A DNA stretch of 64,000 bases from Acinetobacter calcoaceticus (lineage in GTDB: Bacteria > Pseudomonadota > Gammaproteobacteria > Pseudomonadales > Moraxellaceae): the NCBI RefSeq assembly GCF_900520355.1, contig NZ_LS999521.1, positions 2,294,001 to 2,358,000 of the forward strand, in the 5' to 3' direction. Position 1 is the stretch's first letter; each line of letters opens with the position of its first letter. The notes beneath the pieces were generated by a model. The model saw only the letters and a list, made by a program, of their open reading frames with translations, was not told the origin of the DNA and did not search any database. Below, piece after piece: positions 13,206-48,803 of the stretch. The position numbers and the translations under genes are program-made.

Positions 13206-13715
13206 ATGAATGCTAAATTAAATACAGAAGCCCCTCAAAGCTTTATCTCAGATGGTTCAAATACATCCTTTTCAACTAAAGATATTCTTTCTAAAGCACA
13301 GCAATATGCACAAGCGCATGAACTTAATTTTAGTGGAAGTTTATCACCCAACGACGCATGGCAGCTCGTTCAAAATGGTCAAGCTGTTTTAGTTGATGTA
13401 CGCACCAATGAAGAACGCAAATTTGTAGGATATATTCCTGAAAGTATTCATGTTGCATGGGCAACAGGCACCTCTTTCAATCGTAATCCACGCTTTTTAA
13501 AAGAACTCGAATCGAAAGTTGGAAAAGATAAAACCATTCTTTTGTTATGTCGTAGTGGTAACCGTTCAGCACTCGCAGCCGAAGCCGCATTTAATGCCGG
13601 TTTTGAGCACATTTATAACGTTCTTGAAGGCTTTGAAGGTGACCTAGACGATCAGCAGCAGCGTAATCAAAAGAATGGCTGGCGTATTCATCAACTCCCT
13701 TGGCAACAAGACTAA
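13206..13715 (+). CDS. Rhodanese-like sulfurtransferase (encapsulin-associated)
   Basis: The 169-residue protein contains one rhodanese domain (about 45-165) with the VLVDVRTNEERKFVGYIP entry motif and the active-site loop LLCRSGNRSALAA, catalytic Cys115. Rhodaneses carry sulfane sulfur as a cysteine persulfide and pass it to acceptors such as thiols or cyanide. Here the gene heads a sulfur cluster with serine O-acetyltransferase, the family 2A encapsulin and its cysteine desulfurase cargo; such neighbours are known for family 2A systems. An AAGGA ribosome site precedes the ATG. Confidence 0.9.
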   Translation: MNAKLNTEAPQSFISDGSNTSFSTKDILSKAQQYAQAHELNFSGSLSPNDAWQLVQNGQAVLVDVRTNEERKFVGYIPESIHVAWATGTSFNRNPRFLKELESKVGKDKTILLLCRSGNRSALAAEAAFNAGFEHIYNVLEGFEGDLDDQQQRNQKNGWRIHQLPWQQD

Positions 13716-13751
13716 AACTTCAACACATTTTCAGTGAATCAAGGAAAGCTT

Positions 13752-14675
13752 GTGACTCAATGGAACATTAATGCTGTTGTACAGGGTTTACAACAAGCAA
13801 GGCATGACTGGCGTCAGCAACAGCACAGAATCAAAGAATTCGGTGGCCGTGAACTTCCATCTAAAGAAGCTTTAAAAGCCATTTTAGATGATCTCTGCGG
13901 CATTTTATTTCCAATGCGTTTAGGTCCTGCTGACTTACGCCAAGAAACTGAAGACTCTTATATTGCCTATACCTTAAATCGGGTACTGACTGCATTACAT
14001 GCTCAAGTACAACTGGCTTTAAATTATGAGGCAAAGCGTCATTTGGGTCATTTAAGTGCAACCCAACAGCCACAAGAGCTTGCTCAAAATATTGTTCAAG
14101 ATTTTGCTAATACTTTGCCTTCCATACGACGACTTTTAGATGGAGATGTACGTGCGGCCTACGAAGGTGATCCAGCGGCACATAGCGTAGACGAAGTATT
14201 ACTCTGCTATCCGGGCATATTTGCGATTATTCATCACCGAATTGCACATCAGCTCTATGCCCAAGTGCCACTATTGTCTCGCATTATTTCTGAGTTAGCA
14301 CACTCTGCAACGGGAATTGATATCCACCCAGGTGCGCAAATTGGAAAGGGCTTTTTTATAGACCATGGTACTGGTGTAGTAATTGGGGAAACTAGTGTGA
14401 TTGGGGAGCGTGTCCGTATTTATCAAGCTGTAACACTTGGGGCAAAACGCTTTGAAACTACTGATGATGGTGCTTTGAAAAAAGATTATACGCGCCATCC
14501 AATTGTTGAAGATGAAGTCGTGATCTATGCAGGTGCCACTATTTTAGGCCGTATTACGATTGGTCGAGGGTCCATTATTGGGGGAAATGTCTGGCTGACA
14601 CATAGTATTGCCGCAGGTAGCCAGATTTTACAGTCACCAAATGAGTCTTATCAAAAAAATCATATTGCCGGTTAA
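13752..14675 (+). CDS. epsC: Serine O-acetyltransferase, EpsC type
   Basis: This enzyme acetylates serine with acetyl-CoA to O-acetylserine, the carbon skeleton for cysteine synthesis. The protein has a long helical N-terminal domain and a C-terminal left-handed beta-helix with hexapeptide repeats: GIDIHPGAQIGKGFFIDHGT, GVVIGETSVIGERVRIYQ and ATILGRITIGRGSIIGGN. I chose the GTG at 13752, preceded by AAGGA at 6 nt, over an in-frame GTG at 13734 lacking a good site. It follows the rhodanese gene by 36 bp. Its product feeds cysteine, the substrate of the encapsulated desulfurase, so the cluster is metabolically coherent. Confidence 0.92.
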   Translation: MTQWNINAVVQGLQQARHDWRQQQHRIKEFGGRELPSKEALKAILDDLCGILFPMRLGPADLRQETEDSYIAYTLNRVLTALHAQVQLALNYEAKRHLGHLSATQQPQELAQNIVQDFANTLPSIRRLLDGDVRAAYEGDPAAHSVDEVLLCYPGIFAIIHHRIAHQLYAQVPLLSRIISELAHSATGIDIHPGAQIGKGFFIDHGTGVVIGETSVIGERVRIYQAVTLGAKRFETTDDGALKKDYTRHPIVEDEVVIYAGATILGRITIGRGSIIGGNVWLTHSIAAGSQILQSPNESYQKNHIAG

Positions 14676-14779
14676 AAACTATAGATGTGAAATAAATAGA
14701 TAAGGAGACAAATAAATATTAAGAGCTAACTTAAATTAATTTAATGCTTATTTCTCATTTAAATATATTTTTATTTTAA

Positions 14780-14804
14780 ATATAGATTTTTAATTAATAA
14801 GCCA
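14780..14804 (-). promoter_or_regulatory. Shared 25-bp element, copy 2 (upstream of encapsulin)
   Basis: Read on the minus strand, this is 22/25 identical to 13,094-13,118. It lies in the 249-bp AT-rich gap between the serine acetyltransferase and the shell gene, about 120 bp before the shell start, suggesting that the encapsulin pair has its own co-regulated promoter. Confidence 0.5.
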
Positions 14805-14924
14805 CTATTCAAAGTTTATAAAACCTTTTTATTTTTAAAACCAGAACTAATTCTAGTTTATAGCAACACTAGAGTTTTTAATTTTTTGATTTAACCAAGC
14901 CACTGTAATAAGGAAAAATGATTC

Positions 14925-15857
14925 ATGGCGAAAAATACTGATAAAGCACAACTTGCGCTGGGGGACCATGCAGCTCGCCAACTGGCCAATGCAACCAAGA
15001 CAGCTCCTCAACTTTCTACAATTACTCCCAGATGGCTAACTCACTTACTTCAATGGCTTCCTGTTGAAGCAGGTATTTATCGTCTAAACCGTGTGAATAA
15101 TACCGATGACATTCAAGTGGCTTGCACACAACGTGATGAAGCGACTTTACCTCAAACTTTTGTTGATTATGACCCACAGCCACGCGAATACTTTTTAAAT
15201 GGTGTATCGACTGTTCTGGATGTACATACACGTGTTGCTGACCTTTACAGCAGCCCACACGATCAAATTAAAGAACAGCTTCGTTTAACGATTGAAACCA
15301 TTAAAGAACGTCAAGAAAGTGAGCTTATCAATAACCCTGAATACGGTTTACTGGCAAGTGTGACAGATGACCAACGTATTTCGACTTTAAATGGCCCACC
15401 GACCCCAGATGATTTAGATGATTTATTACGTAAAGTCTGGAAAGAACCCGGCTTTTTTCTTGCCCATCCAGATGCGATTTCAGCTTTTGGCCGCGAATGT
15501 ACACGCCGTGGCGTACCGCCTCCAACAGTGAGTTTATTCGGTTCACAATTTATTACATGGCGCGGGATTCCCCTTATTCCATCTAATAAAATTCCGGTAG
15601 AAGATGGCAAAACTAAAATCTTACTGCTTCGTGTCGGTGAAAAACGTCAAGGTATTGTCGGCTTATTCCAACCGGGGCTTGCAGGTGAACAGTCACCGGG
15701 GCTTTCAGTGCGTTTTATGGGCATTAACCGTAACGCGATTGCATCTTATCTCATCTCTTTATATTGCTCGCTTGCAGTATTGACTGATGATGCTTTGGCA
15801 GTATTAGATGATGTGGAGGTGGACAAATATCATGACTACCCAGTTAACTACAAGTAA
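14925..15857 (+). CDS. Family 2A encapsulin shell protein (SrpI-like)
   Basis: The 310-residue protein is the shell subunit of a family 2A encapsulin, a HK97-fold virus-derived nanocompartment. Recognisable parts are the family 2 N-terminal arm (MAKNTDKAQLALGDHAARQL), the TVLDVHTRVADLYSSPHDQIKEQLR helix region, LASVTDDQRISTLNGPPTPDD, the P-domain stretch FFLAHPDAISAFGRECTRRG and the C-terminal LSVRFMGINRNAIASYLISLYCSLAVL. These shells package a cysteine desulfurase; work on SrpI homologues, including, as I recall, from A. baumannii, shows storage of elemental sulfur. AAGGA precedes the ATG, and the cargo gene starts inside its 3' end (26-bp overlap). Confidence 0.95.
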   Translation: MAKNTDKAQLALGDHAARQLANATKTAPQLSTITPRWLTHLLQWLPVEAGIYRLNRVNNTDDIQVACTQRDEATLPQTFVDYDPQPREYFLNGVSTVLDVHTRVADLYSSPHDQIKEQLRLTIETIKERQESELINNPEYGLLASVTDDQRISTLNGPPTPDDLDDLLRKVWKEPGFFLAHPDAISAFGRECTRRGVPPPTVSLFGSQFITWRGIPLIPSNKIPVEDGKTKILLLRVGEKRQGIVGLFQPGLAGEQSPGLSVRFMGINRNAIASYLISLYCSLAVLTDDALAVLDDVEVDKYHDYPVNYK

Positions 15858-17793
15858 TCTGCAAGGTAGTCCAACAGGGTCGGAATTGGCTGGTGCTCAC
15901 CCACCATCCAACTTCCCCGATGAATCTACCATTGCCCGTCTTGCCAATGAGTTTTTTTCAGCATTGCCAAGTTCAGGCAGTTCGGCTTCTTCATCGGGAC
16001 TCAATCTGGACTTACCTGTGGGTACACCACCACATCCACCACAACCGGGTGAACCATTTTCGGCACTCAGTGGTCGCGCACCTAATATCGCCTTTCAGAA
16101 AAGTCTTAATCCGGAATATCCTGAGCATATTCCAAATTTGCCAGACTATCCTGAACGTCGGATTGTCGCTTCTGCACCTGTGGTTGGTGGTGCAAATTTA
16201 CCTCGTCCTCCATTTGAGCCACATTTGCCACAAGCTGTTCATAGTGAGCCGAATGTGCCACGTATTGAACCAAACTTACCGACGGGTGCTGGTGAATCAC
16301 CTTATTATTTTTTAAATGATTTTTCTGTTCCAAATGCAGCAGAACCTTCTGTTACTGGTGTTGAAGATAACTATTCAATTGCGCAGTCTTTTCAGTTGCC
16401 GCATGGCAACCAGCTAAAGTCTTTACTCATTGAAGATCGTTTTGCAGCTGACACACCAGCAAAAACCCCACCAAGCTCTGGATTTTACTTTTTAGACTTA
16501 CCACAAAGCGGGCAAAGTTATAGTCACTATCAACCATCTCAACCTACCTTTGTAGCAAGTAGTGCTCAGCCCTTAGATGTGCATGCCATTCGTCGTGATT
16601 TCCCAATTTTGCAGGAACGCGTCAATGGTCGCCCACTGGTCTGGTTTGACAATGCTGCAACTACACAAAAACCGCAGCGTGTGATTGATCGAATTGCTTA
16701 TTTTTATCAGCATGAAAACTCGAACATTCACCGTGCTGCACATGAGTTGGCTGCTCGTGCAACCGACGCCTATGAACATGCACGAAATGTAGTTGCCCGT
16801 TTTATTGGTGCACCCTCTTCCAAAGAAATTATCTTTGTTCGAGGAACCACTGAAGGCATTAACCTGATTGCAAAAACATGGGGTGAACAAAATATTGGTG
16901 AAGGTGATGAAATTATTGTTTCTCACTTAGAACACCATGCCAATATTGTGCCTTGGTATCAACTCACTAAAAAAACTGGAGCAAAATTACGAGTCATTCC
17001 TGTTGATGACACGGGTCAAATTATTTTAGAAGAGCTGCCAAAACTGATTAATGAACGCACTAAACTGCTGTCTATTACTCAAGTGTCTAATGCTTTGGGA
17101 ACAGTTACCCCTGTTGCTGAAGTCATTAAAATTGCCCATGCCAAAGGTGTACGGGTTTTAGTGGACGGCGCTCAATCTGTTTCGCATATACCCACTGATG
17201 TTCAGGCCCTTGATGCAGACTTTTTTGTGTTCTCTGGGCATAAAGTGTTTGGTCCAACAGGTATTGGTGCAGTCTATGCGAAACCAGAACTGTTAGAAAC
17301 CATGCCAGTTTGGGAAGGTGGCGGCAACATGATTCAGGACGTCACCTTTGAACAGGTGGTTTACCAACCTGCACCAAACAAGTTTGAAGCTGGAACTGGA
17401 AACATTGCTGATGCAGTCGGTTTAGGGGCAGCACTTGAATATGTAGAAAGTTTAGGTATTCATAACATTGCAAGCTATGAACATGATTTGCTTGAATATG
17501 GTCAAAATGCGCTTAGCAGTGTGTCTGGTTTACGCCTCATCGGAACTGCTCACAATAAAGCCAGTGTCATGTCGTTTACGTTACAAGGTTATTCAACTGA
17601 ACAGGTTGGTAAGGCTTTAAACCAACATGGTATTGCTGTACGTTCAGGTCATCACTGTGCACAGCCAATTTTACGTCGTTTTGGTGTGGAACAAACCGTG
17701 CGCCCGTCTTTAGCTTTTTATAATACAACTGAAGAAATTGATTTATTGGTGTCTGTTTTACACCAGTTAACACGTAATAAGCGTACTGTTTAA
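15832..17793 (+). CDS. Encapsulin cargo: cysteine desulfurase with disordered targeting domain
   Basis: The 653-residue protein has two parts. Residues 1-245 are Pro/Ser-rich and apparently disordered, with a conserved-looking helix ESTIARLANEFFSALP (31-46) and two aromatic motifs, YYFLNDF (158-164) and FYFLDLP (218-224); this matches the encapsulation domain of family 2A cargos. Residues 246-653 are a SufS-type group II desulfurase: WFDNAATTQKP, HRAAHELAARA, PLP lysine K471 in FSGHKVFGPTG and catalytic Cys609 in RSGHHCAQP. It removes sulfur from cysteine as a persulfide. The ATG at 15832 follows GGAGG; an in-frame start 24 bp upstream lacks one. It overlaps the shell gene, implying coupled stoichiometry. 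Confidence 0.95.
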   Translation: MTTQLTTSNLQGSPTGSELAGAHPPSNFPDESTIARLANEFFSALPSSGSSASSSGLNLDLPVGTPPHPPQPGEPFSALSGRAPNIAFQKSLNPEYPEHIPNLPDYPERRIVASAPVVGGANLPRPPFEPHLPQAVHSEPNVPRIEPNLPTGAGESPYYFLNDFSVPNAAEPSVTGVEDNYSIAQSFQLPHGNQLKSLLIEDRFAADTPAKTPPSSGFYFLDLPQSGQSYSHYQPSQPTFVASSAQPLDVHAIRRDFPILQERVNGRPLVWFDNAATTQKPQRVIDRIAYFYQHENSNIHRAAHELAARATDAYEHARNVVARFIGAPSSKEIIFVRGTTEGINLIAKTWGEQNIGEGDEIIVSHLEHHANIVPWYQLTKKTGAKLRVIPVDDTGQIILEELPKLINERTKLLSITQVSNALGTVTPVAEVIKIAHAKGVRVLVDGAQSVSHIPTDVQALDADFFVFSGHKVFGPTGIGAVYAKPELLETMPVWEGGGNMIQDVTFEQVVYQPAPNKFEAGTGNIADAVGLGAALEYVESLGIHNIASYEHDLLEYGQNALSSVSGLRLIGTAHNKASVMSFTLQGYSTEQVGKALNQHGIAVRSGHHCAQPILRRFGVEQTVRPSLAFYNTTEEIDLLVSVLHQLTRNKRTV

Positions 17794-17804
17794 ATCTATT
17801 TTTG

Positions 17805-17834
17805 AAAAAAGACTGCTTTTGAGCAGTCTTTTTT
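17805..17834 (+). terminator. Rho-independent terminator of the encapsulin operon
   Basis: AAAAAAGACTGC pairs perfectly with GCAGTCTTTTTT around a 6-nt loop, ending in a T-run, 12 bp after the desulfurase stop. Confidence 0.9.
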
Positions 17835-20731: not shown

Positions 20732-21598
20732 TTATTCAACCAATAAATCTTTTGGATTAATCGTATCGCCATAGACTGGTTTTAAAGTTTTTTGATAGGC
20801 CTGATGAATCACGCCTTCTTTTGCCAGTTTCTCTAAATCTTGATTCAACCAGTCCAATAACTCTTTGTCACCTTTTTTCACTGCCGGTGCGATTAAGTCC
20901 TGCTCACCTAAATTGGTAATACCGACGGTGTAATTTGGATTTTCTTTAGCCCAAGCTAAAACCAGCAAGTTGTCATGTGCTAAAGCAGCACCACGGCCAT
21001 CTTTTAAAGCATCAAAGGTTTCAGTGTTTTGCTCATACTTTTGCAGTTTAATTTCAGGATGAGTCTTGGTGAAGAATGAATCAGCCGTAGTACCTTTATT
21101 CACCAACAAAGTTTTATCTTTGAGTTGAGCAATATCTGTAATTGGATGAGTTTTAGGAGACACCACACCCAAAGCAACTTTTAAATAAGGTTTAGCAAAA
21201 TCGACTACTTCTTTACGTTCTGGTGTAACCGTAAAGTTTGCAAAAATAATATCCACTTTATTGGCTTTTAAATATTCGACACGATTTGCAGCTTCAGTTA
21301 AAACAAACTCTACCTTGTTTTCATCACCCAATAAGTCTTTAGCAACATGCTTGGCAATCTCTACATCGAAGCCCTGATTTTTACCTTGAGCATCTAAATA
21401 TCCAAACGGCGGTTTATCGCTAAATACACCAATACGCACGACACCATTCTTTTTAATCTGCTCAATACTCGACACAGTTTGAGTGCTGTCAGCTGTTTTT
21501 TCATTAGATTGCGTGCCTTTATCACATGCAACCAAACCTAAACTCAGCAAAGATGCAGCGAGGACATGCTTTATATTTTGTAAAGTTAGTGTTGTCAT
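20732..21598 (-). CDS. Amino-acid ABC transporter binding lipoprotein (second copy)
   Basis: The 288-residue family 3 solute-binding protein has a lipoprotein signal ending LGLVAC, so it is likely anchored by its cysteine at about residue 25. The binding-fold motifs are GVVRIGVFSDKPPFGYLD, NQGFDVEIAKHVAKDLLG and NFTVTPERKEVVDFAKPY. These resemble CjaA/PEB1-type proteins that bind cysteine, aspartate or glutamate. It is the last gene of an ABC operon and clearly a tandem paralogue of the gene directly upstream; which ligand each takes is unknown. Confidence 0.9.
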   Translation of the reverse strand: MTTLTLQNIKHVLAASLLSLGLVACDKGTQSNEKTADSTQTVSSIEQIKKNGVVRIGVFSDKPPFGYLDAQGKNQGFDVEIAKHVAKDLLGDENKVEFVLTEAANRVEYLKANKVDIIFANFTVTPERKEVVDFAKPYLKVALGVVSPKTHPITDIAQLKDKTLLVNKGTTADSFFTKTHPEIKLQKYEQNTETFDALKDGRGAALAHDNLLVLAWAKENPNYTVGITNLGEQDLIAPAVKKGDKELLDWLNQDLEKLAKEGVIHQAYQKTLKPVYGDTINPKDLLVE

Positions 21599-21680
21599 TA
21601 TTTCACCCTATCGTTCTTGTAAAAGTCTTATTTAAAATCACAGTGCCTACTTTTAGACACTGCTCCAGCGATATCGAAAA

Positions 21681-22541
21681 TTATTGGCCTACATCTAAAA
21701 ACACATTAGGATTAACCGATTCACCATAAATTGGTTTTAAGGTTTCATCATAAATTTTCTTAATTTCACCGCTTGTTCTTAGCTGCTTAATTTCAGTATT
21801 GAGCCAATTCAATAATTGGGTATTACCCTTTTTAACTGCTGGGGCAATAAACTCTTGATCACCAATAGACTGGATACCCGCCACATAACTTGGGTTCTTC
21901 GCAGCCCATGCCAAAGCGTATGTACTATCTTGTGAAATTGCGTCACCACGACCATCAGTCAAGGCTTTGAACGCATCCGAGTTTCTTTCAAACTTCAGTA
22001 AATTCACTTTCGGATAGTGCTTCGTAAAATAGGTATCTGAACTGGTGCCTTTATTTACAATTAACGTTTTACCTTCCAATTGAGCAATGTTAGTAATTGG
22101 TTTGGCTTTAGGCGAGACAATCCCGAAAGCACCTTTTAAATAAGGCTCGGCAAAATCTACAACCTCCTTACGTTCAGGCGTTACTGTAAATGTCGCAAAC
22201 ACAACATCGGCACGATTGGATTTTAAAAACTCCACCCGATTTGAAGCTTCCGTCACAATAAACTCAACTTTCTTTTCATCACCGAGCAGATCTTTAGTGA
22301 CTCGTTTTGCTAAGGCCACATCAAAGCCCTGATTATTGCCAGCACTATCTACATAACCAAACGGCGGATCATCAGCAAAAACGGCAACTCGCAACACCCC
22401 ATTTTTTTTGACTTGCTCTAAAGACTGGTCTTCTTGAGTATTACTTGCTTGCTCAGTTGATGGCGTTTTACTACATGCCGTTAATAACACCCCAGCAACA
22501 GCAATACTGCTTAATATTTTTATTGAATTACGTTTAAACAT
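21681..22541 (-). CDS. Amino-acid ABC transporter binding lipoprotein (first copy)
   Basis: This 286-residue protein carries a lipoprotein signal with lipobox LLTAC (about residues 19-23) and the family 3 binding fold: GVLRVAVFADDPPFGYVD, NQGFDVALAKRVTKDLLG and TFTVTPERKEVVDFAEPY. It is closely similar to the next gene (20,732-21,598) along its whole length, indicating a tandem duplication. The operon supplies one ATPase and two permeases, so both binding proteins probably feed the same membrane complex. Confidence 0.9.
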   Translation of the reverse strand: MFKRNSIKILSSIAVAGVLLTACSKTPSTEQASNTQEDQSLEQVKKNGVLRVAVFADDPPFGYVDSAGNNQGFDVALAKRVTKDLLGDEKKVEFIVTEASNRVEFLKSNRADVVFATFTVTPERKEVVDFAEPYLKGAFGIVSPKAKPITNIAQLEGKTLIVNKGTSSDTYFTKHYPKVNLLKFERNSDAFKALTDGRGDAISQDSTYALAWAAKNPSYVAGIQSIGDQEFIAPAVKKGNTQLLNWLNTEIKQLRTSGEIKKIYDETLKPIYGESVNPNVFLDVGQ

Positions 22542-22572
22542 TCACTTCCTCATGATTCAAATAATAAAAAAC

Positions 22573-23304
22573 TTAATACGACAAGATATTTAAAAAGGTT
22601 TTAGCTCGTTCTGTTTTCGGCTGTTCAAAAAACTCTTCAGGTGGTGCTTGTTCAATAATTTTGCCCTTATCCATAAAAATAATGCGGTCGGCAACCTTAC
22701 GGGCAAAGGACATTTCATGAGTCACAATCAACATGGTCATCCCCTCATTGGCTAGTTTCAAAACTACATCGAGCACTTCTCTGACCATTTCTGGGTCAAG
22801 TGCGGCTGTAATTTCATCAAGCAAAATGACTTTAGGTTGCATGACCAGTGAACGGACAATGGCGATACGCTGCTTTTGTCCACCAGAAAGTTGTCGCGGA
22901 TAATCGAGTTTTCGTTCAAAGAGTCCTACTCGCTTTAACAACTCATCTGCAACTTGTTCAGCTTCATCACGGCGGCGTTTTTGCACTTTGAGTGGTCCAA
23001 GCAAAATGTTGTCAATGACATTCATATGTCCAAATAACTCATAGTTCTGAAAAACCATGCCAATTTTTTGACGAGCATTAGTCCAGTCCACATCTTTACC
23101 GAGCACACCTGAACCAGTTAAACGGATTTCACCACCTTGAATCGGTTCTAGTCCATTAATGCAGCGCAGTAAGGTGCTTTTACCACAGCCCGATGGCCCT
23201 AAAATAACAACCACCTCTCCTTGTTCTACATCTAGATCAATGCCCTGTAAAATATGACTTTGTGCAAATGATTTCTGTAATTGTTGTATCGATAACAAAG
23301 GCAT
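22573..23304 (-). CDS. Amino-acid ABC transporter ATP-binding protein
   Basis: The 243-residue ATPase shows Walker A GPSGCGKST, Q-loop FQNYELF, signature LSGGQKQR, Walker B VILLDEIT and the switch histidine in IVTHEMSFA. It belongs to the polar amino-acid (GlnQ/HisP) class that energises the two adjacent permeases. I start at MPLLSIQQLQ (23304), 2 bp after the permease stop; a longer in-frame reading overlaps the permease gene. Confidence 0.95.
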   Translation of the reverse strand: MPLLSIQQLQKSFAQSHILQGIDLDVEQGEVVVILGPSGCGKSTLLRCINGLEPIQGGEIRLTGSGVLGKDVDWTNARQKIGMVFQNYELFGHMNVIDNILLGPLKVQKRRRDEAEQVADELLKRVGLFERKLDYPRQLSGGQKQRIAIVRSLVMQPKVILLDEITAALDPEMVREVLDVVLKLANEGMTMLIVTHEMSFARKVADRIIFMDKGKIIEQAPPEEFFEQPKTERAKTFLNILSY

Positions 23305-23306
23305 AA

Positions 23307-23972
23307 TTACTCCCAGACCTTTTCTAAATGTGCCGCCAAACGAGATAAGGGATAGCAAATCAGAAAATACAAAATAAAAATAAAGCCATAAATCCAAAGC
23401 GAGGCGCTCGGCACAGTCAGTAGCGAATTTTCAATAATTTGCTGGCCCACCTTAATGACCTCAACCACCCCAATCAGAACTGCCAAAGAGCTGGTTTTCA
23501 CCATTCGGGTAAATAAATTAATTGCGCCTGGTGTTACACGTTTTAGACTTTGCGGAAAAATAACGTAGACCAATGCTTGAACATGAGTCAGTCCGAGCGC
23601 ATAGGCCGAATCGCGTTGATGCTGATCAATTGAGGTAATTGCCGCACGAACCAAATCACCCATTTCAGCCGTCCCCCACAAAACAAATACAACAACGCAT
23701 ACCCACATCGCAGAAAACTGCCAGTTAAACCATGTCGCAAAGCCGAAATAAAAGACAAACAGCAAAACTAAAATTGGAATGATTCGAATGGCTTCTAAAT
23801 ACAGGCGGCACAGCGATTTAACCGCTATATTTTTAGAGGTCATAATGACGCCGAAAACTGTGCCAAAAATTGCAGAGAAAAACACTGAAATAAATGCAAT
23901 TTTTGCGGTTGCCCAGAGTCCCCACATTAAACGTTCGAGGTGACTCGCCTGAAATAAATAATCAAGTTCCAT
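23307..23972 (-). CDS. Amino-acid ABC transporter permease
   Basis: The 221-residue HisM/GlnP-type permease has about five membrane spans, the EAIRIIPILVLLF segment, and the EAA-loop region RDSAYALGLTHVQALVYVIF preceding PQSLKRVTPG. It overlaps the preceding permease by 11 bp and pairs with it to form the channel for the substrate delivered by the two lipoproteins. Confidence 0.92.
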   Translation of the reverse strand: MELDYLFQASHLERLMWGLWATAKIAFISVFFSAIFGTVFGVIMTSKNIAVKSLCRLYLEAIRIIPILVLLFVFYFGFATWFNWQFSAMWVCVVVFVLWGTAEMGDLVRAAITSIDQHQRDSAYALGLTHVQALVYVIFPQSLKRVTPGAINLFTRMVKTSSLAVLIGVVEVIKVGQQIIENSLLTVPSASLWIYGFIFILYFLICYPLSRLAAHLEKVWE

Positions 23973-24633
23973 GGCTCACCTTCCGACTTCTGTGCTCCAG
24001 ATAGCTGGTTAAAATAGACACAGGCAATAAAATAATCAGATAAGCCATGATGAGTAAAAACAAAGCTTCCGTAGTTTTATAATCCATGCCAATTAAGTCT
24101 TTGGTGACAAAAAGCAGCTCAACGACAGCAATCGCACTCACCACAGAACTTTCTTTAATTAAAAATAGACAATTTGCTCCAATTGCTGGAATTGAAATAG
24201 CAAGGGCTTGAGGAAAAATCACATATCTAAAAATTTGACTTGGCTGCAAACCGATACTTTTAGCGGAGTCAATCTGCCCAATGGCAATAGATTGCAAACC
24301 TGCCCGAAAAGCTTCCGCCATATAGCTTCCGCCTAAAAATGTAAGGCCGATTACACCACAAGCGAAACCATCAATTTTGATGCCAAGTTTTGGCAAACCG
24401 TAATACAAAAAGAACAGTTGAATTAATAAAGGGGTATTTCGAGATAACTCAATATAGAACTGGGCAATTCTATTTAGCACCCGCACGCGATATGTGATTA
24501 AAATGCTGCAAATCAGCCCTACAATAATGGCCAAAATAATACTGATAATTGAAATTTTCAGCGTGGTCAAAGTTGCAGAGAAAAATTGCGGCAACACACT
24601 ATGGATATACTGCCAGTTCAAGGAAAATTCCAA
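23962..24633 (-). CDS. Amino-acid ABC transporter permease
   Basis: The first gene of the ABC operon. The 223-residue protein contains FYIELSRNTPLLIQLFFLYYG, the classic polar amino-acid permease motif, and the EAA loop (SAKSIGLQPSQIFRYVIFPQ). The gene order permease-permease-ATPase-binding protein-binding protein, with short gaps or overlaps, indicates a single transcript starting in the AT-rich gap 24,634-24,849. Confidence 0.92.
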   Translation of the reverse strand: MEFSLNWQYIHSVLPQFFSATLTTLKISIISIILAIIVGLICSILITYRVRVLNRIAQFYIELSRNTPLLIQLFFLYYGLPKLGIKIDGFACGVIGLTFLGGSYMAEAFRAGLQSIAIGQIDSAKSIGLQPSQIFRYVIFPQALAISIPAIGANCLFLIKESSVVSAIAVVELLFVTKDLIGMDYKTTEALFLLIMAYLIILLPVSILTSYLEHRSRKVSHGT

Positions 24634-45394: not shown

Positions 45395-45871
45395 ATGTTT
45401 AACTCATGCTATAAATTATTAGCACAAGAAAAAATTAAAATCGCTTTTTTCGAAAGTGCTTCTGCTGGCTATTTAGCTTACCGCTTTTCTTTAAGCCCCT
45501 ACTCTGGCGATATTCTTATTGGAAGCTTAGTGAGCTATGACTTACGAGTTAAAGAAAATACACTTCATATTTCTTCTGAACTCGTTGAAAAATATACAGC
45601 AGAATCAATGCCTGTCACTGTAGAGATGATCAAAAAAGGAAAAGAACTTCTACATGCCGATCTTTATGTCGCTTGTACTGGTCTATTAAAAAAAGGTGGT
45701 TCAGAAACTAAAGAAAAACCGGTGGGCACCTTCTTTTATTCTATTTATTATAAAAATCAATTTTACAATTTTAGACGAGTATTTAGAGGATTACCATGTC
45801 TCAAACTTAGACAACTTCTCTACTATATTAATCAGGATATAGAATATATAATCTTAGATAATAAAAAATAG
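45395..45871 (+). CDS. Stand-alone CinA C-terminal domain (PncC-like) protein
   Basis: The 158-residue protein corresponds to the CinA/PncC nicotinamide-nucleotide amidohydrolase domain: KIAFFESASAGYLAYRFS (normally ESCTGG), GDILIGSLVSYDLRVKENTL, ESMPVTVEMIKKGKELLHADL and ACTGLL ... EKPVGTFFYSI. PncC deamidates NMN in the NAD salvage cycle. The catalytic serine region is kept as ES but the usual Cys-Thr-Gly-Gly reads Ala-Ser-Ala-Gly, so activity may be altered. GGAG precedes the ATG. Its neighbours are stress genes rather than NAD genes. Confidence 0.8.
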   Translation: MFNSCYKLLAQEKIKIAFFESASAGYLAYRFSLSPYSGDILIGSLVSYDLRVKENTLHISSELVEKYTAESMPVTVEMIKKGKELLHADLYVACTGLLKKGGSETKEKPVGTFFYSIYYKNQFYNFRRVFRGLPCLKLRQLLYYINQDIEYIILDNKK

Positions 45872-48582: not shown

Positions 48583-48745
48583 GCTGACCTATTTTGTCAG
48601 TCGGTTTTAGCAGATCGTCTACCTAAGTGCACTAAAAACACGTTTTTTGGTGTGAAGCCCCTCGTGCCTTTGACGGAGGAACGGGAGTGGGACACCTTCG
48701 GGTGTGCTGGTTTCTTAGGTATCAGTCTGCTAACCCTCTTTCGTT
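48583..48745 (+). ncRNA. Structured small RNA, C4-antisense-like (Acinetobacter group I sRNA candidate)
   Basis: This GC-richer island in AT-rich DNA has no good open frame but strong pairing potential. A 5' hairpin is formed by CCGGCTGAC and GTCAGTCGG (48580-48604). A long-range closing stem pairs TTAGCAGA (48607-48614) with TCTGCTAA (48726-48733) and, after an internal loop, ACCTAAG (48621-48627) with CTTAGGT (48714-48720). Inside lies ACACC-TTCG-GGTGT (48692-48705), a stable UUCG hairpin readable on the plus strand. The fold recalls C4 antisense RNA of phages P1/P7, which has multi-copy relatives in Acinetobacter. Strand follows the promoter and the tetraloop; exact ends are uncertain. Confidence 0.7.
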
Positions 48746-48803
48746 TCACCACCATAATTAATAGCAGTGATTGGGCGCAACTTCTTTTATCAAGGAGTCT
48801 CTA

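Follow-up and report, generated by a model that had tools for sequence, protein, structure and literature searches.

A four-gene encapsulin operon of Acinetobacter calcoaceticus and its possible role as a sulfur buffer during cysteine shortage

A four-gene operon built around a family 2A encapsulin shell lies in a 64,000-nucleotide stretch of the Acinetobacter calcoaceticus chromosome (NCBI RefSeq assembly GCF_900520355.1, contig NZ_LS999521.1, positions 2,294,001 to 2,358,000 of the forward strand; this whole stretch is hereafter called the window, and coordinates are given in its own numbering). The open reading frame (ORF) list of the window shows the genes in a row on the + strand: a rhodanese, a serine O-acetyltransferase (SAT), the shell, and a cysteine desulfurase cargo, CyD. 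The identities of these genes, their catalytic residues, the layout of the operon and the co-occurrence of its members among relatives are established here. The reading favoured for the whole, to which a probability of about 0.5 is given, is that the operon would provide a starvation-controlled sulfur buffer, with the rhodanese as carrier and the SAT acting on the leg of release and recapture. The system itself is already known. Added here are a count of co-occurrence with the shell across Acinetobacter, a set of loci that keep accessory genes without a shell, a small regulator-like gene between SAT and shell in many relatives, and a tie to published data on Acinetobacter baumannii.

The shell, its cargo and the two accessory proteins

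The shell gene (14,925 to 15,857, + strand) encodes a 310-residue protein of the SrpI/MMP-I type that scores 540.8 bits against the family 2A model NF041162 (cut-off 380) and 353 bits against PF19307. It also exceeds the cut-off of the family 2B model NF041163 (429.2 against 400), by way of the common shell domain; the cNMP-binding domain that marks family 2B is absent, and Pfam shows only the SrpI-like domain over the 310 residues, which places the protein in family 2A. Alignment with PDB 8T6R finds 306 of 310 positions the same, with four differences counted from the alignment. That chain, the record of which is titled only Major membrane protein I, we take to be the family 2A encapsulin shell of A. 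baumannii. Elemental sulfur is reportedly stored inside the A. baumannii particle, and by near-identity both the storage of sulfur and the loading of CyD would carry over from the family to the operon described here.

CyD (15,832 to 17,793, + strand; 653 residues) scores 917.3 bits against the curated cargo model NF041166 (cut-off 800) and 547.9 bits against TIGR01979 (cut-off 475.1), and the nearest solved chain is 8KG1. Its N-terminal extension bears the motifs IARLANEFFS (residues 34-43), SPYYFLND (156-163) and FYFLD (218-222), and is followed from about residue 250 by a SufS-like domain with the pyridoxal phosphate lysine, Lys471, in SGHK and the catalytic cysteine, Cys609, in RSGHHC. A preliminary description of this DNA, made from the sequence, had put both residues at exactly these places and had assigned shell and cargo to their families, and on both points it agrees with the scores above curated cut-offs. 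In Synechococcus elongatus, the N-terminal part of CyD directs it into the shell, and encapsulation makes it more active (PMC8049743, which is drawn on throughout for a portion of its text). The targeting domain described in that portion carries the motifs LARLANEFFS and AASPYYFLDG, and both types are found in the window cargo, as IARLANEFFS and SPYYFLND. Among 101 cargos the second motif was matched in 81 and a narrow pattern for the first in 14; by eye, forms like L-A-x-[LM]-A-x-x-F-F occur in most of the cargos printed.

The rhodanese (13,206 to 13,715, + strand; 169 residues) is a single-domain protein scoring 60.5 bits against PF00581 (cut-off 22.2), and its predicted active loop, CRSGNRS with Cys115, is of the six-residue C-x-x-G-x-R type. 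The loop CRSG[KN]RS recurs in 92 of 94 loci, a count in which some genomes appear twice. The protein is 91-92% identical to PDB 8W14, a rhodanese-like domain of A. baumannii 118362 released on 2024-09-25, and matches its fold; a literature search for a publication on that structure found none. The predicted model has a mean pLDDT of 87.9, with residues 1-20 disordered.

The SAT (13,734 to 14,675, + strand; 313 residues from a GTG start) scores 160.5 against the EpsC model NF041874 (cut-off 150) and 165.6 against the CysE equivalog TIGR01172, which is under the cut-off of 210.65, and is thus of the EpsC type. It carries the motifs DIHPGAQIG and IDHGTG, presumably catalytic. In one annotated relative (L044, CAKLQF020000001.1) the SAT is begun 18 nucleotides later, at a second GTG. 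A terminal isoleucine in SATs is a sign of docking to CysK; the window SAT ends in glycine, and the main CysE of the genome (tail NKISKT) likewise lacks the terminal isoleucine. Tails do not track with the presence of cysK in the operon, and the SAT tail was dropped as a sign of docking.

Rhodanese and SAT are separated by 18 bp, SAT and shell by 249 bp, and the shell and cargo genes then overlap by 26 bp between the shell stop and the cargo start (15,832 to 15,857, + strand), so that the ORF coordinates bear out the overlap, with rhodanese and SAT upstream, that had been claimed earlier. The listed cargo ORF opens at 15,808 (661 residues); the start was taken at 15,832, as in the preliminary description, and matches relatives such as L166 (NZ_CP077849.1), a 3.66-Mb record titled plasmid pDETAB15 that looks like an A. 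baumannii chromosome and has the same 26-bp overlap. Of the 68 named loci that offer enough flank and have the cargo on the shell's strand, 33 show a cargo start at -26, the choice of start in relatives being biased towards the window's own. The overlap is a probable site of translational coupling. The gap between SAT and shell (14,676 to 14,924) is gene-free and AT-rich; with a GC content of 20% and a longest frame of 28 amino acids, a small gene there was ruled out. Beyond the cargo, a 13-pair hairpin whose 3' arm holds a T run (17,805 to 17,834, + strand; fold -16.1 kcal/mol, z -4.9), which a consensus terminator scan had not listed, is the probable intrinsic terminator closing the operon.

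Conservation of the operon and co-occurrence with the shell

A search with the shell profile provided relatives for comparison as the best 80 of at least 566, a set skewed to near kin, and 69 of these were long enough, with 4 kb or more ahead of the shell and 2.3 kb or more behind it (the other 11, being shorter, were dropped). In 60 of the 69, one of them with the SAT on the opposite strand, rhodanese, SAT and CyD all lie within 4 kb of the shell, an arrangement that is therefore more than chance. Six of the remaining nine loci lack the SAT, two lack both rhodanese and SAT (in one of these, L120, a SAT lies 6 kb away), and one lacks CyD. The SAT is the more expendable partner, because it is missing near the shell in eight of 69 loci, versus two for the rhodanese, and is divergent in one Acinetobacter lineage. 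A cysK-like gene was found near the operon in eight of the 60 complete loci, in line between rhodanese and SAT in five, downstream and only 38% identical in two, and on the opposite strand in one. Outside the genus, the nearest named relatives among the best 80 of at least 566 are mostly Betaproteobacteria by name; in a class-level sample, seven of 369 genomes, including the window's own, had a shell match, six of them over the cut-off.

Across 119 sampled Acinetobacter genomes the shell was found in 40. An orthologous rhodanese (E <= 1e-15) is present in all 40 shell-positive genomes versus three of the 79 shell-negative ones, and an operon-type SAT (more than 400 bits) in all 40 versus four of 79, with Fisher p values, uncorrected for common ancestry, of 1.6e-28 and 1.8e-27, respectively. 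That rhodanese and SAT belong to the shell system had been claimed beforehand; the claim gains from these counts and, provided that the locus tags of A. baumannii AB5075 discussed below denote this operon, from the joint induction of rhodanese and CyD in that strain. The shell-less genomes that keep helper genes are G022 and G063 (rhodanese and SAT), G068 (rhodanese), and G036 and G110 (SAT), and the stretches of 9 to 11.5 kb around the kept genes contain no shell or cargo. Their existence weakens the notion of a strict dedication of the helper genes to the shell. Decay of the SAT was considered in two genomes and rejected in both: the sole stop in G022 sits just before the start codon, and the aligned frame of G093 is stop-free.

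Unrooted trees of shell, SAT and rhodanese, made from 13 and 6 chosen Acinetobacter loci, give the same two lineages, each a single clade among the rows listed, which fits common descent. In the second lineage the SAT is inverted and reads away from the rhodanese. One genome, G093, carries two family 2A encapsulin/CyD pairs 20 kb apart (L125 and L178), and in one copy other genes, TonB-receptor-like by eye, stand between the shell and the SAT and rhodanese genes.

Outside Acinetobacter, a small gene for a helix-turn-helix (HTH) protein of the Cro/C1 (XRE) type lies between SAT and shell in 42 of the 62 named loci that have SAT and shell on one strand within 1 kb; over all such loci the count is 43 of 86, with some Acinetobacter genomes counted twice. 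The two of these proteins that were tested exceed the Pfam HTH_3 cut-off of 23 bits, with scores of 59.2 and 52.9. In Acinetobacter, loci with the SAT in line, that of the window among them, have an AT-rich gap at this place, and no HTH gene was found in it. The small HTH protein is a possible regulator of the operon outside Acinetobacter. Four loci that have no SAT at this place (L055, L061, L064 and L101) likewise carry an HTH gene immediately ahead of the shell. Among aligned Acinetobacter loci, blocks upstream of the operon are conserved; a single scan of one genome for a promoter motif, with a pattern of wrong spacing, gave no matches.

A phage origin of the operon was set aside, as phage collections gave only two matches, both under a single organism name. 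The one inspected, the 378-kb record L044, bears the title Acinetobacter phage MD-2021a but holds the operon amid ordinary chromosomal genes and looks like a host chromosome filed as phage. Elsewhere, on plasmid pACIB of Aliarcobacter cibarius (L040), an encapsulin cluster has MoaD/ThiS and M67 metallopeptidase genes in its vicinity, a possible sign of a sulfur-carrier pathway to cysteine next to the shell.

Sulfur shortage and the roles of rhodanese and SAT

Work on cysteine synthesis in A. baumannii points to a link between the operon and cysteine shortage. Two functional SATs, CysE and the product of sat, are described in the part of PMC13344012 used here: without cysteine, cells lacking cysE grow more slowly, the loss of sat alone has no such effect, and cells lacking both fail to grow. 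Expression of sat is up more than 1,000-fold in the cysE deletion. The cysE gene of A. baumannii overlaps an RNA methyltransferase gene by 8 nucleotides (PMC13344012), and this neighbourhood is reproduced in the present genome, with a SpoU-type methylase. One A. baumannii chromosome has only two strong SAT genes, cysE and that of the encapsulin operon, 52.6 kb apart, all other matches being below 32 bits. Because there are only two such genes and the neighbourhood of cysE matches, sat would appear to be the SAT of the encapsulin operon.

Expression studies point the same way for what are probably other members. In AB5075 on vitamin B12, ABUW_2414 (rhodanese; log2 3.57) and ABUW_2417 (CyD; log2 3.31) are induced alongside sfn, ssu and tau genes, as given in the main text of PMC12892962, and ABUW_2417 falls with cys/sulfate, taurine and sulfonate genes upon loss of glutathione, as given in that of PMC12914303. 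Shell and CyD of S. elongatus rise under sulfur starvation (PMC8049743). These observations suggest that the operon is switched on within the response to sulfur or cysteine shortage.

A starvation-controlled buffer would then work as follows. Shell and CyD would be made together from their overlapping genes, and the N-terminal part of CyD would bring it into the shell, where it would strip sulfur from cysteine, yielding alanine and a deposit of sulfane or elemental sulfur inside the shell. The operon would be turned on during shortage of sulfur or cysteine. The rhodanese would most likely serve as a carrier of sulfane sulfur between the particle and cytosolic thiols, and released sulfide would most likely be joined with SAT-made O-acetylserine to give cysteine through CysK or CysM encoded elsewhere. 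The SAT is accordingly put on the leg of release and recapture, not on that of loading, because expression and genetics place it among the responses to cysteine shortage; the cysK gene found in line, with the rhodanese on one side and the SAT on the other, in five of the 69 relatives, and ahead of the SAT in S. elongatus, was counted for recapture. Neither direction for the SAT, loading or recapture, is proven. A sharper version, offered tentatively and with some doubt, is that the particle is not a store for surplus cysteine: shortage would co-induce shell, CyD, rhodanese and the back-up SAT, and sulfur would be parked in the shell, drawn on via the rhodanese as sulfide, and recaptured. If this is true, the back-up cysteine pathway of A. 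baumannii is one arm of an encapsulin operon.

Several points weigh against the buffer and its control by shortage. An operon that is induced by starvation and yet encodes a cargo that destroys cysteine is a paradox for a role in recapture, one that would be answered if the buffer converted cysteine derived from protein into a protected sulfur reserve. In S. elongatus, shell and cargo knockouts have no growth defect, whether sulfur-starved or not (PMC8049743). The response to vitamin B12 is called strain-specific in PMC12892962. The tags ABUW_2414 to ABUW_2417 are matched to this operon by gene order and names, and ABUW_2415 and ABUW_2416 are absent from the main texts of PMC12892962 and PMC12914303, the only two papers that a literature search for the four tags brought up; neither uses any word that begins with encapsul. 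The main text of PMC13344012, which treats sat alone, likewise has no such word; it never names a rhodanese or desulfurase, its RNA-seq of the double mutant included, so that a rise of the other operon genes is neither reported nor excluded there. The SAT is missing near the shell in the eight loci noted above, and the co-occurrence count is taken over species that are not independent of one another. Finally, the rhodanese (three) and SAT (four) frames kept in shell-less genomes are all open, and both helper genes may therefore work without the particle.

This last point favours an explanation that is considered unlikely, namely that SAT and rhodanese are ordinary sulfur-limitation genes brought together with the shell by a common promoter and a history of transfer, with no action on the particle. 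The kept frames that were read have no internal stops, G068 has the rhodanese in a 10-kb stretch without SAT, shell or cargo, and the A. baumannii SAT acts as a plain biosynthetic enzyme (PMC13344012). The distribution is, however, tight for general-purpose genes, as 76 of the 79 shell-less genomes are without the rhodanese and 75 without an operon-type SAT.

The preliminary description had proposed an assembly line, in which the SAT raises O-acetylserine and thereby the cysteine feedstock for CyD, with the rhodanese carrying sulfane sulfur inwards or outwards. The constancy of the SAT speaks for it, both beside shell and cargo in the 60 complete loci and in every shell-bearing Acinetobacter genome. 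The A. baumannii SAT is nevertheless switched on when cysE is lost, and it can partly stand in for CysE in cells grown without cysteine (PMC13344012), and it is the SAT that, among the accessory genes, is more often missing or re-oriented. What is probably the same SAT thus behaves as a strongly induced back-up enzyme and is expendable, which leaves the making of cysteine for the shell unsupported and the assembly line improbable.

A reading in which the shell's main task is to hold back or activate CyD, or to keep polysulfide away from the reducing cytosol, with a lasting store only secondary, is more improbable again in view of the elemental sulfur that Benisch and colleagues are said to have found, in 2024, in particles of the A. 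baumannii homologue. In its favour, CyD of S. elongatus became more active when encapsulated, and the authors of that study bring up shielding and sequestration (PMC8049743).

Two neighbouring features of the window may be mentioned here. Just downstream of the operon (20,732 to 24,633, - strand) lies a polar amino-acid ABC transporter with two binding proteins, which may be a cysteine importer; no listed cystine model was over its cut-off. In AB5075, ABUW_2420, named as a cysteine ABC transporter substrate-binding protein and with a tag near those of the operon, is up 1.86 log2 on vitamin B12 (PMC12892962, main text). Farther away (48,669 to 48,756, + strand), a match to the Rfam C4 antisense RNA (61.7 bits, gathering score 45) stands amid small ORFs, and a Pfam scan of three nearby proteins (at 45,395, 47,268 and 49,307) found none that is phage-like.

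Comparison with known systems

Among the accessory genes of family 2A desulfurase operons, SAT and rhodanese were recognized in 2021 as those with the highest enrichment, and it was suggested that only a co-regulated rhodanese might accept sulfur at the shell (PMC8346489, consulted in part). The role of release factor that the preliminary description proposed for the rhodanese is related to this published idea of a dedicated acceptor. Within the literature searched, outside which most subscription papers lie, this paper alone brings encapsulin and rhodanese together. Linking the operon to three published expression and genetic studies of A. baumannii predicts when the particle is made and gives the puzzling second SAT of that species a home; the roles of SAT and rhodanese also become testable in the laboratory species Acinetobacter baylyi, the type strain of which (L046) has the same four genes.

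The closest counterpart is the A. baumannii encapsulin. Besides the shell's near-identity to 8T6R, the shell is 99% identical to that of L166, where the four genes also stand in this order. The host is another species, with chromosomal DNA about 88% identical to that of A. baumannii, and the upstream neighbours differ: an AraC regulator and a LysE-type gene in the window, and a LysR regulator and a short-chain dehydrogenase in L044, the 2.1-kb upstream stretch of which is matched by L166 at 97%. The sat gene of PMC13344012 would, by gene number and position, correspond to the operon SAT.

The srp genes on pANL of S. elongatus (cysK, an EpsC-type SAT, srpI and cyd; PMC8049743) share the SAT-shell-CyD order and a rhodanese beside the cluster, and the shells are 74% identical. 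In contrast to the window, cysK is part of the S. elongatus cluster, the rhodanese is short (116 residues) and lies downstream, and shell and CyD genes do not overlap. Other proteobacterial 2A operons, mostly of Betaproteobacteria by name (among them Burkholderia, Variovorax and Janthinobacterium), have the order rhodanese-SAT-shell-CyD in most cases, and CyD often starts inside the shell gene by the start choice used here; unlike those of Acinetobacter, 42 of 62 carry the HTH gene between SAT and shell.

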